From assembly GCA_027493955.1 (NCBI GenBank), contig JAOSJT010000001.1, positions 3,335,131 through 3,399,130 of the forward strand: DNA of 64,000 nt, written 5' to 3'. The notes below the pieces were generated by a model, which was given only the letters and a program-made list of their open reading frames with translations, made no database searches and was not told where the DNA came from. The translations under genes and the position numbers were made by a program. This document shows positions 1,914 to 12,464 of this stretch, piece after piece (positions within the stretch are counted from its first letter, which is position 1; every line of letters starts with the position of its first letter). Source of the DNA: Bacteroidia bacterium. GTDB lineage: Bacteria > Bacteroidota > Ignavibacteria > SZUA-365.

Positions 1914-2129
1914 CGATGCTACTCGGCTACAGAGAGGAATAACAATTAACATACGAAAATTCGCGTCCCCAATCAGGATGTCATCCGCTGCGAACCACTG
2001 CATTACCCTATGTGTAGCATACCGCGTCTATATGAGAGTGGCATATACTATATACGATGGAACGATCCGTCCGGTGCGTGTGTTATGCTGAGGGGGATGG
2101 TTCGTTTGTACCACCTGGAGCCTGATGAC

Positions 2130-2807
2130 ATGAGTTCAACCACCACACCAAAACCCTTCCGTATTATGGATTGTTCGCTGGCTGCGATCGCAACCGGCCG
2201 ACGCGCGCAGAACCTGCGGGAGTTGCGTGATCACATCCGTGACGTCGACGTGGACAGCATCTACTATCATTTCTGGGGTTCGCGCCTTCGTCCCCGCTTC
2301 GACGAACCGGAATTCAATAACGATTTTGCGTCCTGGGCGCATCGGGGTCTGCACGATGACGTCACCGCAGAACGTCTGAGTATCATTGATCCCCGCGACT
2401 TTCAAACCCTTGAGGAACTGCGCCATGAAATCGTCGAGGTGATCGATGCACGGCTGGACGAACAGGACTTCATCCCCTGGTCCAAAACGGATCAGCAGTT
2501 CTCCTTTATTCGTTCGCAAATCGTCGTTCTCGACACCGGCGTAACGATTGCCACCGTGGACGAGTTGATTTCGTCCCTCCCCGTCATGAGCACGAGCAGC
2601 GTGTATTACCATTTTATTGACGCACGACGGCGTACCGAAACAGGTCGAGATGATTTTTCTACCTGGCTCGCGGATACCGGAGTCAGATCCTCAACACTCG
2701 TTGACGCGCTTGCCGGAGTGGATCCCTATTTCGTCACCCTGGCGGATTTGCGCTCACATCTTGTCGGCGTCTGCACGGACTGGGCGCAGAGAGGAGTATT
2801 CGCATGA
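2130..2807 (+). CDS. DUF5752-like protein with two internal repeats, first gene of trehalose operon
   Basis: This 225-residue soluble protein has no signal peptide and no recognised catalytic motif. It is built of two similar halves, about residues 14-108 and 128-218. Each half carries S(I/V)YYHF (45-48 and 159-162), then a DF-A/S-S/T-W motif, then DP-x-x-F-x-TL-x-x-LR. I recall a family called DUF5752 found beside glycosyltransferases, but that name is from memory. The start at 2130 follows a TGGAG ribosome site; upstream in-frame ATGs lack one. Its stop overlaps the treT start by four bases (ATGA), so it is probably translationally coupled and works with TreT, perhaps as a regulator or partner. 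The role is unknown. Confidence 0.75.
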   Translation: MSSTTTPKPFRIMDCSLAAIATGRRAQNLRELRDHIRDVDVDSIYYHFWGSRLRPRFDEPEFNNDFASWAHRGLHDDVTAERLSIIDPRDFQTLEELRHEIVEVIDARLDEQDFIPWSKTDQQFSFIRSQIVVLDTGVTIATVDELISSLPVMSTSSVYYHFIDARRRTETGRDDFSTWLADTGVRSSTLVDALAGVDPYFVTLADLRSHLVGVCTDWAQRGVFA

Positions 2808-4054
2808 CAAACATTTTGAACTCGTATGCCGCCGTTGTCGGCCAGGACGTCATCGACAAACTTCGGCGACTTGCCGAGCCCCTTCGCGGGACCAGAGTGG
2901 TGCATGTCAATTCGACGCGCGTCGGCGGCGGCGTGGCTGAAATACTGTACAAGCTCGTCCCCCTGCTGAATGAACTCGGACTGCAAACCGAGTGGGAAAT
3001 CGTCGAGGGAAACACGGAGTTCTACGCCTGCACAAAGAGCTTTCACAATGGTTTACAAGGCGACAGCGTGTCTCTTACCGACGGTCTTCTGCGTAATTAC
3101 GAAAACGTGAATGTGCAGAACGCAGAGCGCCTGCGTCCAAAACTGCAGCATGCGGATTTCGTGTTCATTCACGATCCGCAGCCGGCGCCGCTGCTACGGT
3201 CCATGCCGGACAGAAAGGGAAAATGGATATGGCGCTGCCACATCGATGTCAGCAAACCCTACAGACCGGTATGGAAATATCTTCGTCCTTTCGTCGCGTC
3301 GTATGACGCCAGCATTTTCTCATTGTCGGATTTCGCTCAACCCTTGCCGCATCCGCAATATCTTGTGCCGCCCAGTATTGATCCTTTGAGTGAAAAGAAC
3401 ACCGATCTGGATGCGACAGAGGTTCAAGCGGTAGTGGACAGGTTCGGTCTGGACACGTCGCGGCCTCTGGTGCTGCAAGTGTCGCGCTTCGATCGCTTCA
3501 AGGATCCTGTAGGCGTCATACGCGCGTTCCAGATCGCCCGTCGGGGGATCCCCGGATTACAGCTTGTGCTGGCGGGAGGCAGCGCCGACGATGATCCGGA
3601 GGGTGCCGCGGTCCTGGATGAGGTGCGCAGTGCGGCGGGAAATGATTCTGCTATCCACGTCCTTTTACTCCCCCCCGATGCGCATCGGATTATCAACGCG
3701 CTGCAGCGCGCCAGCGATATCGTGATGCAGAAATCCACCCGCGAGGGATTCGGTCTGACGGTAACGGAAGCCATGTGGAAATCGCGTCCGGTTATCGGAG
3801 GGAACACAGGTGGGATTCGACTCCAGGTGATTGACCACCATACAGGTTTTCTCGTCTCCAGTCCGGAAGGTGCCGCTTTACGCATTCGATATCTGCTGAC
3901 GAACCGCGAGAATCTGATGAAAATGGGTGCCACGGCGCATGCCTTCGCACGCGATAACTTCCTTCTCACGCGCCATATCGCGGAGTATCTGACGTTGATG
4001 CTGCTGCAGCACAACGGTGGCAATCGCGTCGAGCTTCAACGGAGTATCGCATGA
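2804..4054 (+). CDS. treT: Trehalose synthase, TreT-type GT4 glycosyltransferase
   Basis: A 416-residue retaining glycosyltransferase with two Rossmann-like halves. Visible landmarks are VNSTRVGGGVAEIL near residue 36 (acceptor/donor loop), IHDPQP, WRCHID, and the GT4 donor-site block EGFGLTVTEAMW near residue 310, followed by GGNTGGI. The family (TreT, trehalose glycosyltransferring synthase) joins NDP-glucose and free glucose to trehalose in one step in the cytoplasm. It overlaps the genes on both sides by four bases (ATGA), placing it firmly in the operon with otsB and otsA, so the cell appears to have two routes to trehalose. A C7 run lies at about 3670, inside an intact frame. Distinguishing TreT from trehalose phosphorylase-like GT4 enzymes needs a tree. 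Confidence 0.85.
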   Translation: MTNILNSYAAVVGQDVIDKLRRLAEPLRGTRVVHVNSTRVGGGVAEILYKLVPLLNELGLQTEWEIVEGNTEFYACTKSFHNGLQGDSVSLTDGLLRNYENVNVQNAERLRPKLQHADFVFIHDPQPAPLLRSMPDRKGKWIWRCHIDVSKPYRPVWKYLRPFVASYDASIFSLSDFAQPLPHPQYLVPPSIDPLSEKNTDLDATEVQAVVDRFGLDTSRPLVLQVSRFDRFKDPVGVIRAFQIARRGIPGLQLVLAGGSADDDPEGAAVLDEVRSAAGNDSAIHVLLLPPDAHRIINALQRASDIVMQKSTREGFGLTVTEAMWKSRPVIGGNTGGIRLQVIDHHTGFLVSSPEGAALRIRYLLTNRENLMKMGATAHAFARDNFLLTRHIAEYLTLMLLQHNGGNRVELQRSIA

Positions 4055-4827
4055 AAATACTGCGTGAAGGAGTTGATGCCGAAAAATTCTTCCGTTCGCA
4101 ACAAGGATGCAGGCGACGCCTGCTCATGCTCGACTATGATGGCACACTCGCTCCATTTGTTCCCGACCGGGGCCGCGCATATCCCTGGCCGGGTGTGCGA
4201 GAGCGTCTCGATGGCTTGATGAGAGACAGCAGCACCATACTCGCTATAGTCACAGGGCGTGCGGTGCAGGACATTCTATCCTTGCTTGACCTGTCTCCTC
4301 TCCCGGAGATCTGGGGCTCACATGGCTGGGAGCATCGTGACGCGACCGGCGGGTATACGCCGCCCGCTCCAACCGATGAACAGAGGAACGCGCTTGACGC
4401 CCTGCTGCTTGAACTCAGAAGCCACGTGCACGCCCAACACATTGAACGAAAACCTGCCTCCATCGCTGTCCATTGGCGCGGATTGACACCGAGTCGTCAG
4501 GAGACGCTCGCAGCACAATTATCGAGAAACCAAGTGTCACCGGAGGCGGTGCTCGCACTCCACCCATTCGACGGAGGGCTGGAGTGGCGCATACCTGGTC
4601 GGAGTAAAGGCGACGCGGTACGGGCACTGCTCTCCGCGCATCAACCATGCTCTGCGGCATATCTCGGAGACGACCGTACGGACGAAGACGCGTTCGCCGC
4701 TTTGCGAACGCACGGACTCTGCGTGCAGGTACAGAACAACGAAAGTGACACCCTGGCGGATATCAGACTCCATCCCCCGGGCGAATTGTTGACATTCCTC
4801 GATCAATGGCTGGCGGGGTCCGTATGA
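4051..4827 (+). CDS. otsB: Trehalose-6-phosphate phosphatase
   Basis: A 258-residue HAD-superfamily phosphatase that removes phosphate from trehalose 6-phosphate. Motif I is MLDYDGTLAPF with the nucleophile Asp28 and acid/base Asp30. The motif II region is VTGR, the Lys of motif III lies in GRSKGDAV, and motif IV is YLGDDRTDEDAF. The length is normal for OtsB. It overlaps treT upstream and the MscS gene downstream by four bases each, consistent with one transcript and coupled translation. With OtsA two genes later it completes the classical two-step trehalose pathway. Confidence 0.93.
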   Translation: MKILREGVDAEKFFRSQQGCRRRLLMLDYDGTLAPFVPDRGRAYPWPGVRERLDGLMRDSSTILAIVTGRAVQDILSLLDLSPLPEIWGSHGWEHRDATGGYTPPAPTDEQRNALDALLLELRSHVHAQHIERKPASIAVHWRGLTPSRQETLAAQLSRNQVSPEAVLALHPFDGGLEWRIPGRSKGDAVRALLSAHQPCSAAYLGDDRTDEDAFAALRTHGLCVQVQNNESDTLADIRLHPPGELLTFLDQWLAGSV

Positions 4828-5924
4828 GTTTTTTTCAGGAAATCGTGTATGGTAATAGTATTGTCGGCTGGATCATCGCGGCGGGTATTGCCCTTGGCGT
4901 GACGGCGTCTCTGTTTCTTCTCAAGCGATTTCTGGTCGTCCGTTTCAGACGCATGGCGCAGCGGACAAGCACGGATCTTGATGACATGTTCGCGGGTTTG
5001 TTGGAGCGCGTGACAGTCTTTTTTTCTCCGGCAATCGGAATCTATGGCGCATCCTACAGTCTGACGCTGACTACAGGAATGGAGCGCGCGCTGAGCCACA
5101 TGATGTATGCGGTCATTTTGCTGCAACTTGGTATGTGGGGTAACAGCGTCATCGCGTACGTCATCGGAAAAACGCTAAAGCTGGAAGAGTACAGCGATGC
5201 CTCGACACAGACCACAATGTCCGTTTTACGCTTCCTGAGCAAACTCCTGCTCTGGTCTGTGCTTCTGCTGCTCATTCTCGATCATTTCGGTTTTAACATT
5301 ACCGCGCTGATCGCGAGTCTGGGTATCGGCGGTATCGCGATCGCACTGGCCGCGCAGAACATTCTGGGCGACCTGTTCGCTTCACTTTCGATCGCCATCG
5401 ATAAACCCTTCATCATTGGTGATTTCATCATTATTGATTCGTACATGGGGACGATAGAGAAGATAGGTATGCGTACGACACACATTCGCAGCTTGAGCGG
5501 AGAGTTGATTGTCTTCTCCAATACTGACCTGTTGCACAGCCGCGTCAGGAATTTCAAGCGAATGACTGAGCGTCGCATCGTGTTCACTCTCGATGTGGAG
5601 TATGGTACCCCGTATGCACTGGTCGAGGAGATACCCGGGCTCGTTCGCGACGTCATCGAACAGGACGCGATGACACGGTTCGAAAGAGGTCATTTCCACA
5701 AATACGGCGCCACGTCGCTCGTATATGAATTCGTCTATCACGTGACATCTCCGGAGTACAAGGATTTCATGGATGCACAGCAGCGCATCAATCTGGAGAT
5801 TTACCGCCTCTTCGAAGAGCGCGGGATACAATTCGCCTTCCCGACGCAGACCATTCATATCGCCCGGAACGCTGAGATGCATACCGCTCGGGCACTATCG
5901 GAGGTGACGCATGAACAGTCCTAA
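4824..5924 (+). CDS. MscS-family mechanosensitive channel
   Basis: A 366-residue inner-membrane protein with about five hydrophobic segments. The last one before the soluble part (about residues 158-186) is the glycine/alanine-rich pore helix typical of MscS (LGIGGIAIALAAQN), followed by the beta domain (IIGDFIII, then RSLSGELIVFSNTDL). The family opens under membrane tension and releases small solutes on hypo-osmotic shock. The start at 4824 (MSFFQEIV) overlaps the otsB stop by four bases; a longer frame from 4806 is open but would overlap more. It lies between otsB and otsA, so the release valve is co-expressed with synthesis of the solute. Confidence 0.9.
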   Translation: MSFFQEIVYGNSIVGWIIAAGIALGVTASLFLLKRFLVVRFRRMAQRTSTDLDDMFAGLLERVTVFFSPAIGIYGASYSLTLTTGMERALSHMMYAVILLQLGMWGNSVIAYVIGKTLKLEEYSDASTQTTMSVLRFLSKLLLWSVLLLLILDHFGFNITALIASLGIGGIAIALAAQNILGDLFASLSIAIDKPFIIGDFIIIDSYMGTIEKIGMRTTHIRSLSGELIVFSNTDLLHSRVRNFKRMTERRIVFTLDVEYGTPYALVEEIPGLVRDVIEQDAMTRFERGHFHKYGATSLVYEFVYHVTSPEYKDFMDAQQRINLEIYRLFEERGIQFAFPTQTIHIARNAEMHTARALSEVTHEQS

Positions 5925-7380
5925 TCGTATGCTGATCGTATCCAACCGGCTGCCGGTGGTTATCGAGGAGGAGGACGGGGAGTGGAGCCTGCGTCCCGGC
6001 TCGGGAGGATTGGTAACGGCAATGGCGCCGGTATTGCGAAACCGCGGCGGAGTCTGGATTGGCTGGTCCGGCCTGCCGGATGAGAACCCGGAGCACATAG
6101 CGGATCTTCTGAATCAGGCACCGGCCGACACGGGGTACCGACTGTGTTCCGTACCGCTGAGTTCTCATGACGTGGATTTGTATTATCAGGGATTCTCCAA
6201 CGAAGTCATCTGGCCGCTCTTCCATGATTTGCAGTCACTTTGTCATTTTCGGCCGGAATACTGGGACTGCTACCTTTCTGTGAACAGGAGATTCGCATCC
6301 GTGATAGCCGAAGAATATCGCGCGGGTGATTATGTGTGGGTGCATGATTATCATCTCATGCATGTCGGCGAGGAGCTCCGGCGGGAAGGTATTCAAAGCC
6401 CAATCGGCTTTTTCCTGCATATCCCTTTCCCCGCACCGGATATCTTCATGAAGCTTCCCTGGCGTTTTCAGGTGTTGCAGGCGCTGCTACAGTACGATCT
6501 CATTGGGTTTCAGACGGTACGCGACCATCGCAACTTCATCCAGTGCGTCCGCATGCTGATGAAGGATATTCCGATACGCCATGCGCGCGGAATGCACATA
6601 TGTGCGACGGAGCGCGCGGAAGTGCGATTGGGTGTATTTCCGATAAGCATCGATTACGGCGACTTCGAGCGGCAGGCGCGGAGCCGGGAGATTTCCGAGT
6701 CCGCGTGGTACATTCATGAAGCGGTGCAGGACAGACAGATTGTCCTGGGTGTGGACCGTCTCGACTATACCAAAGGGATACCGAACCGGCTCGAGGCATT
6801 TCACCATTTGCTGCAAACGCATCCGGAGCTGCATGAGCGTGTGACCTTCATTCAGGTCGTTGTCCCGAGCCGCGCGGACATTGCACGCTATGATACACTG
6901 AAAACCGAAATCGAGCAGCTTGTCAGTCGCATCAACGGAGAATTCACCCGATCAGGATGGATTCCTGTACACTACATCTACAGACATCTTACACCACGGG
7001 AGTTGCTCGGTTACTATCGCACTGCCGAAGTCGCCTTTGTCACACCCATCAGAGACGGAATGAATCTTGTGGCGAAGGAATACTGCGCCTGCAACATCGA
7101 TGGCAACGGGGTGCTCATACTCAGTGAATTTGCGGGAGCGGTGCAGCAGCTGCATCGCTACGCGCTGGTGGTCAATCCCTATGACGTGTCCGGTGTGGCG
7201 CAGGCGTTGTTTGAGGCATTGTCCATGCCCGCCGACGAACGGCAACGTCGTATGCGGCGTCTGCGGGCCATTGTTCGACGGTATGATATTTTCCGTTGGG
7301 TGGAGACATTTCTTCATGCCGCCATCGAAAAGGATCTTCGAAATTTTCCTTTGCTCGATGAATACATCCCATCTCAGTAA
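5911..7380 (+). CDS. otsA: Trehalose-6-phosphate synthase (GT20)
   Basis: A 489-residue glycosyltransferase that makes trehalose 6-phosphate from NDP-glucose and glucose 6-phosphate. Conserved family blocks are all present: IVSNRLPV at the N-terminus, [56 protein letters not shown] and LSEFAGA. The length is close to E. coli OtsA. The start codon lies inside the end of the MscS gene (14-base overlap), which fits co-translation. It is the last gene of the operon; the next gene (dapF) is 133 bases away with no overlap. I see no obvious terminator in that gap. Confidence 0.95.
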
Positions 7381-10628: not shown

Positions 10629-12464
10629 TCACCGCAGCACGACATACCCATACGGAGGAAGACGGAACTCGGCGCGTACACCTCGCAGGGAGAATTGCCC
10701 TCGCGAAAGTAATTGTTCGCCTTTCAGTGAACCGGGAAGGACCGTGCTTACCTTCGCCTCTTTCGCAGAACAGTTCACCGCTACGACGACCACTTCACTC
10801 CCCAGTCTGCGTGCGAACAGCAGAACGGGCGTCGCTTCCTTGGGGGTCAAGGCGAGCAGTTCACCCCTTCTGGCGGCGTCATGCTCACGCCGTATGCTGT
10901 AGAGACTGCGGTAGAGATCCCTGAAACCGTGCTCATCCTTGCTCCAGTCGATCAGCACGCGCTCGAAGAGATCGAGGGAGGAAAGATTTCCCGTTTCCTG
11001 TCCGTTATACAGTAATGGAACACCCGGCAGCAGAGTCGTGATCACCGCCGCAGCCCGTGCGGCGGCAGGTCCGAACCATTGCGCAGCCGGGGCGTCGTAC
11101 ATGTCCTTGTCGTGATTGGAGGAAAAGCGCAGGCGGAGCGCCCCTTTCGGATAGCGCCAGGTCTCGGCCCGCAGCGAAAAATGAACGTCCTCGGGATTTA
11201 GGTCGCCATTCAACAGCGGTCGCAATATATCGTAGGTGTTCCAGGCGTATGTCATATCGAAGGCGTTGACATGCAGCTTCGGATCGGCGCCTTCCGCCAG
11301 CATCATGACGGGTTTGACGGCACGGAGAGCCGCGATGGCTTCCACCCAGAAATCATGCGGTACGAGTTCGGCCACATCGCAACGGAAGCCGTCGATGCCG
11401 ACGTCGCGCACCCAAAAGAGCATCATGTCCTTCATCCATTGGCGAAGTGCCGGTTGCGTATAATCAAGATCGGCGACGTCGTGCCAATCCTCATTCGGAG
11501 AAACGATGTCGCCCTCGGCGTTGCGTGTGAACCACTCGGGATGTTGCCTGATCAGCACATTATCCCAGGATGTGTGATTCGCCACCAAATCGATGATGAT
11601 GCGCATACCGTTTGCGTGCGCCGATCGTACCAGTGAGCGGAAATCCTCCATACTTCCGAATTCCGGATTGACCGCGTGAAAATCCCTAACCGCATAAGGA
11701 CTTCCGAGGCTGCCCTTCCGCCGCTCCTCGCCGATCGGATGAATCGGCATCATCCACAGCACGGTAACACCGAGATCTTTCAATTCCGGTAGTCGTCGTT
11801 CGATGGCCTTGAAGCTCCCCTCGCGTGAGAAGGAGCGTGGATACACTTCATAGATAACCGCATCGCGCACCCAGTCGGCGCTGCGCACCGGCTCGGCATT
11901 CACATACTCGCCACGCATGAGCTCCTCCTCCGATTCGTATTCCATCAACGAGACGGAGCCGACAAGACCGCCAGGTCCCGCCAGATCTTCGATTCGCAGA
12001 ACCAGCACATTGCCCTTTTCCAGCAGCTTTCCCGTGACGTCAATAAAAAAGCGCTGTCCGTAGCCCGCGTGTGTGCCGATTCGTGCCCCGTTCAACCACA
12101 ATTCGGCATTGTCGTCCACCGCGTCTATCACGAGCGCGGTCTTTGTGCCGGCAAGTTCTTCGGCATCAAAGCGCTGCACATACCACCCAAAGCCGTCGTA
12201 GGACGAAAACTCCCTGTGCTGATCCCAACTGCCGGGGACTGCGAGCGTCATCCACGACGTGTGATCGCTCGCCGGATCGAACCAGCGCTCCGTGAACCCG
12301 ACATTTTCACCATCCACACGGAAATGCCAGGTGCCGTCGAGAGAAAGCGTCCGGGGGAGGTCGCGACGTTCGTTGTCCGTACCGCCGCAAGCGGAGAGAA
12401 AGAGGAAGAGGGAAAGCACAGTAATACGAGGCAGAGTAGAGCAGAAACAGCGACCGTTGGGCAT
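10629..12464 (-). CDS. Alpha-amylase family (GH13) lipoprotein with GH2-like N-terminal domain
   Basis: A 611-residue exported glycoside hydrolase. The signal peptide ends in a lipobox (LFLSAC, Cys26), so it is probably membrane anchored. Residues about 40-175 look like the jelly-roll sugar-binding domain of GH2 beta-galactosidases (LDGTWHFRVDG, VPGSWDQ, AELWLNG). The GH13 barrel follows: YEVYPRSF, DLVANHTS, nucleophile Asp in GFRCDVAE, acid/base Glu in MMLAEGAD, and transition-state Asp in SSNHDKD, then a C-terminal beta domain. The family acts on alpha-glucans such as starch or glycogen; exact specificity is not readable. A GGGGAG site precedes the start, 12 bases after the nitroreductase stop, so these probably share a transcript. 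Confidence 0.88.
   Translation of the reverse strand: MPNGRCFCSTLPRITVLSLFLFLSACGGTDNERRDLPRTLSLDGTWHFRVDGENVGFTERWFDPASDHTSWMTLAVPGSWDQHREFSSYDGFGWYVQRFDAEELAGTKTALVIDAVDDNAELWLNGARIGTHAGYGQRFFIDVTGKLLEKGNVLVLRIEDLAGPGGLVGSVSLMEYESEEELMRGEYVNAEPVRSADWVRDAVIYEVYPRSFSREGSFKAIERRLPELKDLGVTVLWMMPIHPIGEERRKGSLGSPYAVRDFHAVNPEFGSMEDFRSLVRSAHANGMRIIIDLVANHTSWDNVLIRQHPEWFTRNAEGDIVSPNEDWHDVADLDYTQPALRQWMKDMMLFWVRDVGIDGFRCDVAELVPHDFWVEAIAALRAVKPVMMLAEGADPKLHVNAFDMTYAWNTYDILRPLLNGDLNPEDVHFSLRAETWRYPKGALRLRFSSNHDKDMYDAPAAQWFGPAAARAAAVITTLLPGVPLLYNGQETGNLSSLDLFERVLIDWSKDEHGFRDLYRSLYSIRREHDAARRGELLALTPKEATPVLLFARRLGSEVVVVAVNCSAKEAKVSTVLPGSLKGEQLLSRGQFSLRGVRAEFRLPPYGYVVLR

Follow-up and report, generated by a model that had tools for sequence, protein, structure and literature searches.

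Introduction

The closest described counterpart of the locus considered here is the msc-gt-tpsp operon of the archaeon Thermoproteus tenax, whose genes for a mechanosensitive channel, a glycosyltransferase (GT) and a fused trehalose-6-phosphate synthase/phosphatase (TPSP) were found on one transcript by Northern blot, whose trehalose-6-phosphate synthase (TPS) activity depends on the GT, and for which a make-and-vent model was put forward (Zaparty et al. 2013, PMC3634074). That organization was called unique to Thermoproteus and Pyrobaculum (PMC3634074). The present locus is a cluster of five genes, DUF5752-TreT-OtsB-MscS-OtsA, at positions 2130-7380 of a 64,000-nt stretch of DNA (the window, within which operon coordinates are given) from a Bacteroidia bacterium of the class Ignavibacteria, the genome of which is one contig of 5,237,942 bases. 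Like the T. tenax operon, it has adjoining genes on one strand for an MscS-type channel, a GT4 enzyme and TPS and trehalose-6-phosphate phosphatase (TPP); unlike it, OtsA and OtsB are separate rather than fused as TPS-TPP, the GT is TreT (the trehalose glycosyltransferring synthase) rather than a PimA-like activator, a DUF5752 gene is added, and the gene order is different.

Single components are described elsewhere as well. OrfY of T. tenax (PDB 4CSO) has the same fold as the DUF5752 protein, and the reaction and structures of TreT are described, with Thermoproteus uzoniensis as the source organism (PMC11046441). The otsBA genes of Escherichia coli resemble those of the cluster in overlapping, in their order (otsB, then otsA) and in identity (177 of 461 aligned residues for OtsA and 63 of 243 for OtsB), and differ in that TreT, DUF5752 and MscS are absent from the 8-kb E. 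coli stretch viewed. Sulfolobus acidocaldarius, the genome of which matches DUF5752, also has several trehalose routes; there, deletion of treT lowered trehalose, TreT is active in vivo with several routes acting together, and, unlike here, the organism uses TreY/TreZ and a GT4-type TPS encoded at separate locus numbers (PMC7688234).

The most useful outcome of the analysis is twofold and new here: DUF5752 is linked to TreT, and its repeat is shared with receiver-PPDK_N proteins. No paper naming DUF5752, and none treating 4CSO as a structure, was found in the open-licence PMC literature.

Conservation of the DUF5752-TreT pair

Named genomes were scanned with a TreT alignment, yielding at least 587 confirmed relatives, and the analysis retained the best 80 of these, each with as much as 10 kb of flank on either side; these 80 loci lean towards the TreT of the operon and span 16 named phyla, as taken from record titles. 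Judged from domain coordinates, TreT is immediately preceded by a same-strand DUF5752 gene in 78 of these best 80, and in the two exceptions (L092 and L129) TreT stands at the very start of the contig. A start codon giving a 4-base DUF5752/TreT overlap is available in 44 of the 78 loci, and no fusion of the two genes was seen in 89 loci. Because the two genes are adjacent in 78 of 80 loci and OtsA and/or OtsB flank them in 41, the grouping of the operon genes is beyond chance. The sequence-only reading had merely named the DUF5752 protein, so the mechanism that it described as complete leaves out the most conserved partner of TreT.

The genes around the pair are more variable. DUF5752-TreT stands alone in 34 loci, with OtsB-OtsA behind it in 22, with OtsB before and OtsA behind in 5, and with OtsA-OtsB before it in 2; TreT stands alone in 2, and 11 loci have other orders that occur once each. 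The exact five-gene order recurs in four (L057, L063, L069 and L123). A second trehalose route, full or partial, is found within 10 kb in 63 of the 80 loci: OtsA and/or OtsB flank the pair in 41 (both in 37), TreY and/or TreZ in 23, both routes in 1 and neither in 17, the identity of TreZ and TreY being taken from NCBIfam scores above cut-off for one representative each. Among the 45 loci having at least 4.5 kb of flank on both sides, a second route is nearby in 38, and of nine 'neither' loci that were checked, a GT20 gene lies elsewhere in the genome in five. Mutual exclusion of OtsBA and TreYZ was considered and set aside: the raw Fisher p is 3.4e-08 (1 of 80 loci with both), the kinship-corrected median p is 0.625 (6 pairs), and the distribution is a pattern only.

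Two further observations concern these flanks. In the 38 loci without adjoining OtsBA, TreZ-family genes often follow DUF5752-TreT (20 of 38) and TreY often precedes it (18 of 38), as in the TreZ/TreY-type neighbors L117:4224-6149 and L099:6395-9211. In Thioalkalivibrio thiocyanoxidans, OtsB follows a further HAD-type phosphatase domain in one fused protein (L102:11345-12925), encoded beside DUF5752-TreT.

Fold and repeats of the DUF5752 protein

The DUF5752 protein (2130..2807, + strand, 225 residues; PF19027, 273.8 bits) has OrfY as its closest solved relative (4CSO, E 5.6e-26). Its AlphaFold model has a predicted local distance difference test (pLDDT) score of 94.1, and a Foldseek search with this model returned 4CSO as the sole match at E<=0.001 (E 2.8e-13; template modeling score about 0.8; 31% identity over 212 alignment columns). 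The protein consists of two tandem repeats of ~95 residues (approximately residues 7-104 and 121-214), and the halves align with an hhalign probability of 99.1% and an E value of 1.6e-18. Near-invariant residues are found at matching places in both halves, H47 and H161, and N64-D65-F66-x-x-W69 and D174-D175-F176-x-x-W179. An acidic character is common to all 78 relatives measured, with isoelectric points of 4.51-6.35 (median 4.97) and a median charge of -12.4.

A single copy of the repeat lies between receiver-like and PPDK_N domains in proteins of ~1000 residues across the phylum (L010-L031; examples are L028, 1-2775 on the - strand, and G000:C1:139750-139968), two of which are encoded in the operon's own genome. 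The His and the F-S-x-W motif are kept in 22 of the 22 loci fetched. When eight of these proteins were scanned with Pfam, PPDK_N was found in all eight, a receiver domain above cut-off in six and DUF5752 above cut-off in five. The suspicion that these weak DUF5752 matches were chance matches to RND pumps was dismissed by the receiver and PPDK_N domains that Pfam assigned.

Among six protein pairs compared by pairwise distance over 35 loci, DUF5752 and TreT agree best (r 0.879, partial 0.644). Taken with the linkage, these features suggest that the DUF5752 protein is a regulatory partner of TreT, with which it would form a complex.

Distribution and phylogeny of TreT

In a TreT tree of 93 rows, a starred branch with a Shimodaira-Hasegawa-like approximate likelihood ratio test (SH-aLRT) value of 99 separates 88 DUF5752-linked rows, the two cut loci included, from five TreTs that have no adjoining DUF5752: those of genomes G195 and G200, of two haloarchaeal plasmids and of one Streptomyces plasmid. 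Long branches among these five make their own grouping unsure. A tblastn search of the plasmid collection gave no match to DUF5752. For the 45 loci with ample flanks, linkage to OtsBA requires ~12 changes on the tree and linkage to TreYZ 9, so the second route varies while the DUF5752-TreT pair persists. The exact order with MscS requires 4 changes on the best tree, and the starred branches are compatible with a single origin.

In a sample of 296 genomes of the phylum, TreT exceeds the cut-off in 10 and a full-length DUF5752 protein is found in 8, adjoining TreT in all 8. The 10 TreT clusters include OtsA in 9 and MscS in 7, and their order varies: MscS-DUF5752-TreT is followed by a fused OtsA/OtsB in L034, L035 and L037, OtsA and OtsB are unfused in L036, L039 and L040, and OtsA-OtsB fusions occur in the class relatives L034, L035, L037, L038 and L055. 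Against the sequence-only reading, the exact order recurs in only the four named loci given above. The proteins of the operon are more like those of other phyla (64-70% identity for the 14 best relatives of TreT) than those of its own class (42-49%); a Bacteroidetes metagenome-assembled genome (L057) ranks first in similarity for TreT, OtsA and MscS and shares first place for OtsB. These closer matches outside the class fit a transfer of the cluster between phyla, as judged from identities. As a separate observation, the GT20 (OtsA) proteins at L039:6854-9115 and L040:7288-9555 have ~270 extra N-terminal residues, for which Pfam gave no match at E 0.001.

Organization of the probable operon

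The cluster comprises five + strand open reading frames (ORFs), each overlapping the next, and the Pfam scores of all five products exceed the curated cut-offs. With the MscS start at 4824 the overlaps are 4, 4, 4 and 14 bases, as the sequence-only reading had stated; that reading also placed MscS between TreT and OtsAB, whereas it lies between OtsB and OtsA. An alternative MscS start at 4806 would give a 22-base overlap with OtsB and a protein of 372 residues; 4824 is favored because homologs from the class (L034, L035 and L037) start at the residue that is Met7 in the longer ORF. GGAG-type ribosome-binding stretches precede DUF5752, TreT, OtsB and OtsA, and MscS is preceded by only GGCGGGG. 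The overlaps suggest that the five genes are read from one transcript. A promoter scan gave 3 sites versus 5.2 in shuffled sequences, none of them promoter-like within 2004-2129, and a terminator scan gave 6 sites versus 5.4, which is no excess.

The divergent intergenic stretch at 2004..2129 is, from gene orientation only, the likely place of the operon promoter. Upstream of it a divergent PAS/GAF sensor gene (3-2003, - strand, longest start 2003), possibly a stress sensor, runs off the edge of the window. Downstream of OtsA, dapF follows on the same strand after a gap of 133 bases, and ~3 kb from the operon lies a gene for a GH13 alpha-amylase-type protein with a GH2-type sugar-binding N-terminal domain (10629-12464, - strand), which scores below every trehalose-enzyme cut-off.

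Identity and integrity of the trehalose enzymes

TreT (2804..4054, + strand, 416 residues) has an N-terminal TreT_GT1 domain (PF21269, 190.7 bits) and a C-terminal GT4 domain (PF00534, 81.5 bits), both above cut-off. It is identical at 198 of 390 residues (50.8%; E 4.4e-127) to the crystallized T. uzoniensis enzyme (PDB 6ZJ4), and 84 of the 89 residues invariant among ten relatives are also the same in that archaeal protein. The E-x7-E motif is present as E314...E322. The protein appears to be TreT-like and to fall outside the Thermococcales subgroup, with glucose as its predicted acceptor and trehalose as its predicted product.

OtsA (5911..7380, + strand, 489 residues; GT20, PF00982, 487.7 bits) matches E. 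coli OtsA at 18 of the 19 substrate-binding positions compared, the exception being D340, which is T361 here. Assignment as a glucosylglycerol-phosphate synthase instead was rejected, the score of that model being lower (352.2 versus a cut-off of 569). OtsB (4051..4827, + strand, 258 residues; Trehalose_PPase, PF02358, 80.1 bits) exceeds the equivalog cut-off of TIGR00685 (93.5 versus 68.05 bits). The three published phosphatase motifs are DxDx(T/V), SG and K(x)16-30(G/S)(D/S)xxx(D/N) (PMC3634074); motifs 1 and 3 are present in OtsB, and motif 2 reads TG in place of the published SG.

Proposed function of the operon

The reading preferred here, to which a probability of about 60% is assigned, is that the cluster is a trehalose operon for osmotic or stress protection in which OtsAB and TreT both synthesize trehalose, DUF5752 is the partner of TreT, and MscS is the vent. 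TreT would make trehalose in one step from nucleoside diphosphate (NDP)-glucose and free glucose. The DUF5752 protein would be a dedicated regulatory partner, probably bound to TreT as a subunit, with its repeated His and (N/D)-x-F-x-x-W sites serving to detect a small ligand or a signal. MscS would open under membrane tension and allow solutes including trehalose to leave once the outside osmolarity falls, and trehalose, given a genome with no GH37 or GH65 match, would be cleared by venting or by TreT operating in reverse.

Several observations weigh against this assignment. TreT scores 398.3 bits versus a cut-off of 775 for the Thermococcales TreT equivalog NF041139, a model limited to Thermococcales that excludes membership in that subgroup only, and OtsA falls just under the equivalog cut-off of TIGR02400 (548.2 versus 564.85 bits). 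TreT occurs without DUF5752 in two genomes of the phylum and on the haloarchaeal and Streptomyces plasmids; DUF5752 distances also track those of OtsA (r 0.848, partial 0.525, 35 loci), so the distance test is not specific to TreT; and 4CSO was deposited in the PDB as a transcription factor. As for the vent, 35 of 41 members of the operon's MscS subfamily have no TreT, OtsA, OtsB or DUF5752 within ~7 kb on either side, and any MscS flanks just 9 of the best 80 of at least 587 named TreT loci.

The last two observations bear on the strongest competing explanation, in which MscS is a bystander: a channel of general type whose presence in the operon is incidental and whose function has nothing special to do with trehalose. 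The MscS protein (4824..5924, + strand, 366 residues) has TM2/3, beta and C-terminal domains (PF21088, PF00924 and PF21082) all above cut-off, with 58.9 bits for the beta domain, and is identical to E. coli MscS at 77 of 277 aligned residues, the hydrophobic segments and pore-helix region being alignable; gating by tension and passage of solutes are predicted functions. It is one of five MscS-domain matches in the genome. Its subfamily has 41 members in the 296-genome sample (E 6.6e-63 or better), six of which are in trehalose clusters; among the 35 that are not, the stretches of L191 and L202 end on one side at a contig end. A trehalose-specific MscS subfamily, considered since the MscS proteins of several clusters are 44-57% alike, was rejected on account of these 35, which indicate that the tie between MscS and trehalose is one of gene position and not of a special channel. 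The sequence-only claim that MscS is a release channel for trehalose accordingly finds nothing in the sequence that ties it to this solute. A generic subfamily, the few named loci with MscS and the exact order in only 4 of 80 would all be expected of a bystander. On the other side, seven of the 10 TreT clusters in the phylum sample contain MscS, one of them (L036) a copy of a different type (24% identity to the operon MscS), as does the T. tenax operon, and the chance expectation is ~0.02 per 20 kb, from 5 copies in 5.24 Mb. A bystander channel is judged somewhat less likely than not.

A second alternative is that TreT operates mainly in reverse, such that OtsAB makes trehalose and TreT, together with DUF5752, cleaves the sugar after stress, using NDP and releasing NDP-glucose and glucose; the cluster would then serve to make, reclaim and vent. 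Some archaeal TreTs are reversible. Searches of the 5.24-Mb genome gave a single match each to PF21269 (TreT), PF00982 (OtsA) and PF02358 (OtsB), no match to GH37 (trehalase) or GH65, and no protein over cut-off for TreY (best 58.1 bits versus 498.65) or TreS (best 95.4 versus 678.35). Trehalose synthesis thus appears to rest on the operon as far as these searches go, and no other reclaiming enzyme was found among GH37, GH65 and TreS. Full or partial second routes near DUF5752-TreT in 63 of 80 loci also imply that TreT is often not needed as the sole maker. Against this, loss of treT lowers trehalose in S. acidocaldarius, as noted above (PMC7688234), the T. tenax TreT is described as unidirectional, and of 9 genomes, of unstated completeness, that have no second route near TreT, 4 show no GT20 gene elsewhere either. 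Reversed operation is considered unlikely, and synthesis by TreT is retained as the preferred direction. The genes for both of the trehalose routes named by the sequence-only reading are present, and TreT may act in synthesis or in reclaiming.

It is very unlikely that TreT is chiefly an activating subunit, one that would turn on the GT20 route by binding OtsA/OtsB while its own catalysis is secondary. In favor of such a role, trehalose formation by the T. tenax TPSP requires the GT of the same operon (PMC3634074), and TreT, OtsB and OtsA adjoin here and in many relatives. Against it, PimA is given as the nearest relative of the T. tenax GT while the operon protein closely resembles TreT and keeps its conserved residues, activation in T. 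tenax required a fused TPSP while OtsA and OtsB are separate here, and DUF5752-TreT has neither OtsA nor OtsB in its flanks in 39 of the 80 named loci. Control of the operon by DUF5752 as a transcription factor is similarly improbable, because the header of 4CSO, the place of DUF5752 as the first gene of the cluster and, in Natrialba magadii, the helix-turn-helix annotation of a similarly sized gene immediately ahead of a TreT that lacks DUF5752 (L137, 7244-7891) are set against uniform acidity in the relatives measured, a predicted fold matching 4CSO alone, a fixed position beside TreT on the same strand while surrounding genes vary, and a repeat shared with receiver-PPDK_N proteins.

Conclusions

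The observation of five overlapping trehalose genes is confirmed, and its earlier interpretation is partly supported; most of it holds, but it is of a known kind. The lack of GH37 and GH65 matches fits disposal of trehalose through the channel, as a make-and-vent module would have it, and that idea had already been published for T. tenax (PMC3634074). A wider proposal, held tentatively at somewhat under even odds, is that TreT and DUF5752 would together form a two-protein trehalose synthase in which DUF5752 is the regulatory subunit, that the DUF5752 repeat would be a general bacterial signaling domain, that TreT-DUF5752 would be a switchable addition beside a main route (OtsBA or TreYZ), and that the operon would join switch, maker and vent.

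Bacterial trehalose clusters with MscS, GT4 and TPS/TPP genes exist, although the 2013 T. tenax paper limited this type to two archaeal genera. DUF5752, an unnamed Pfam family, gains a testable job as partner of TreT from the structure 4CSO, the linkage across 16 phyla and the shared repeat. If this partner role is true, one-step trehalose synthesis in many bacteria would be a regulated two-protein system.

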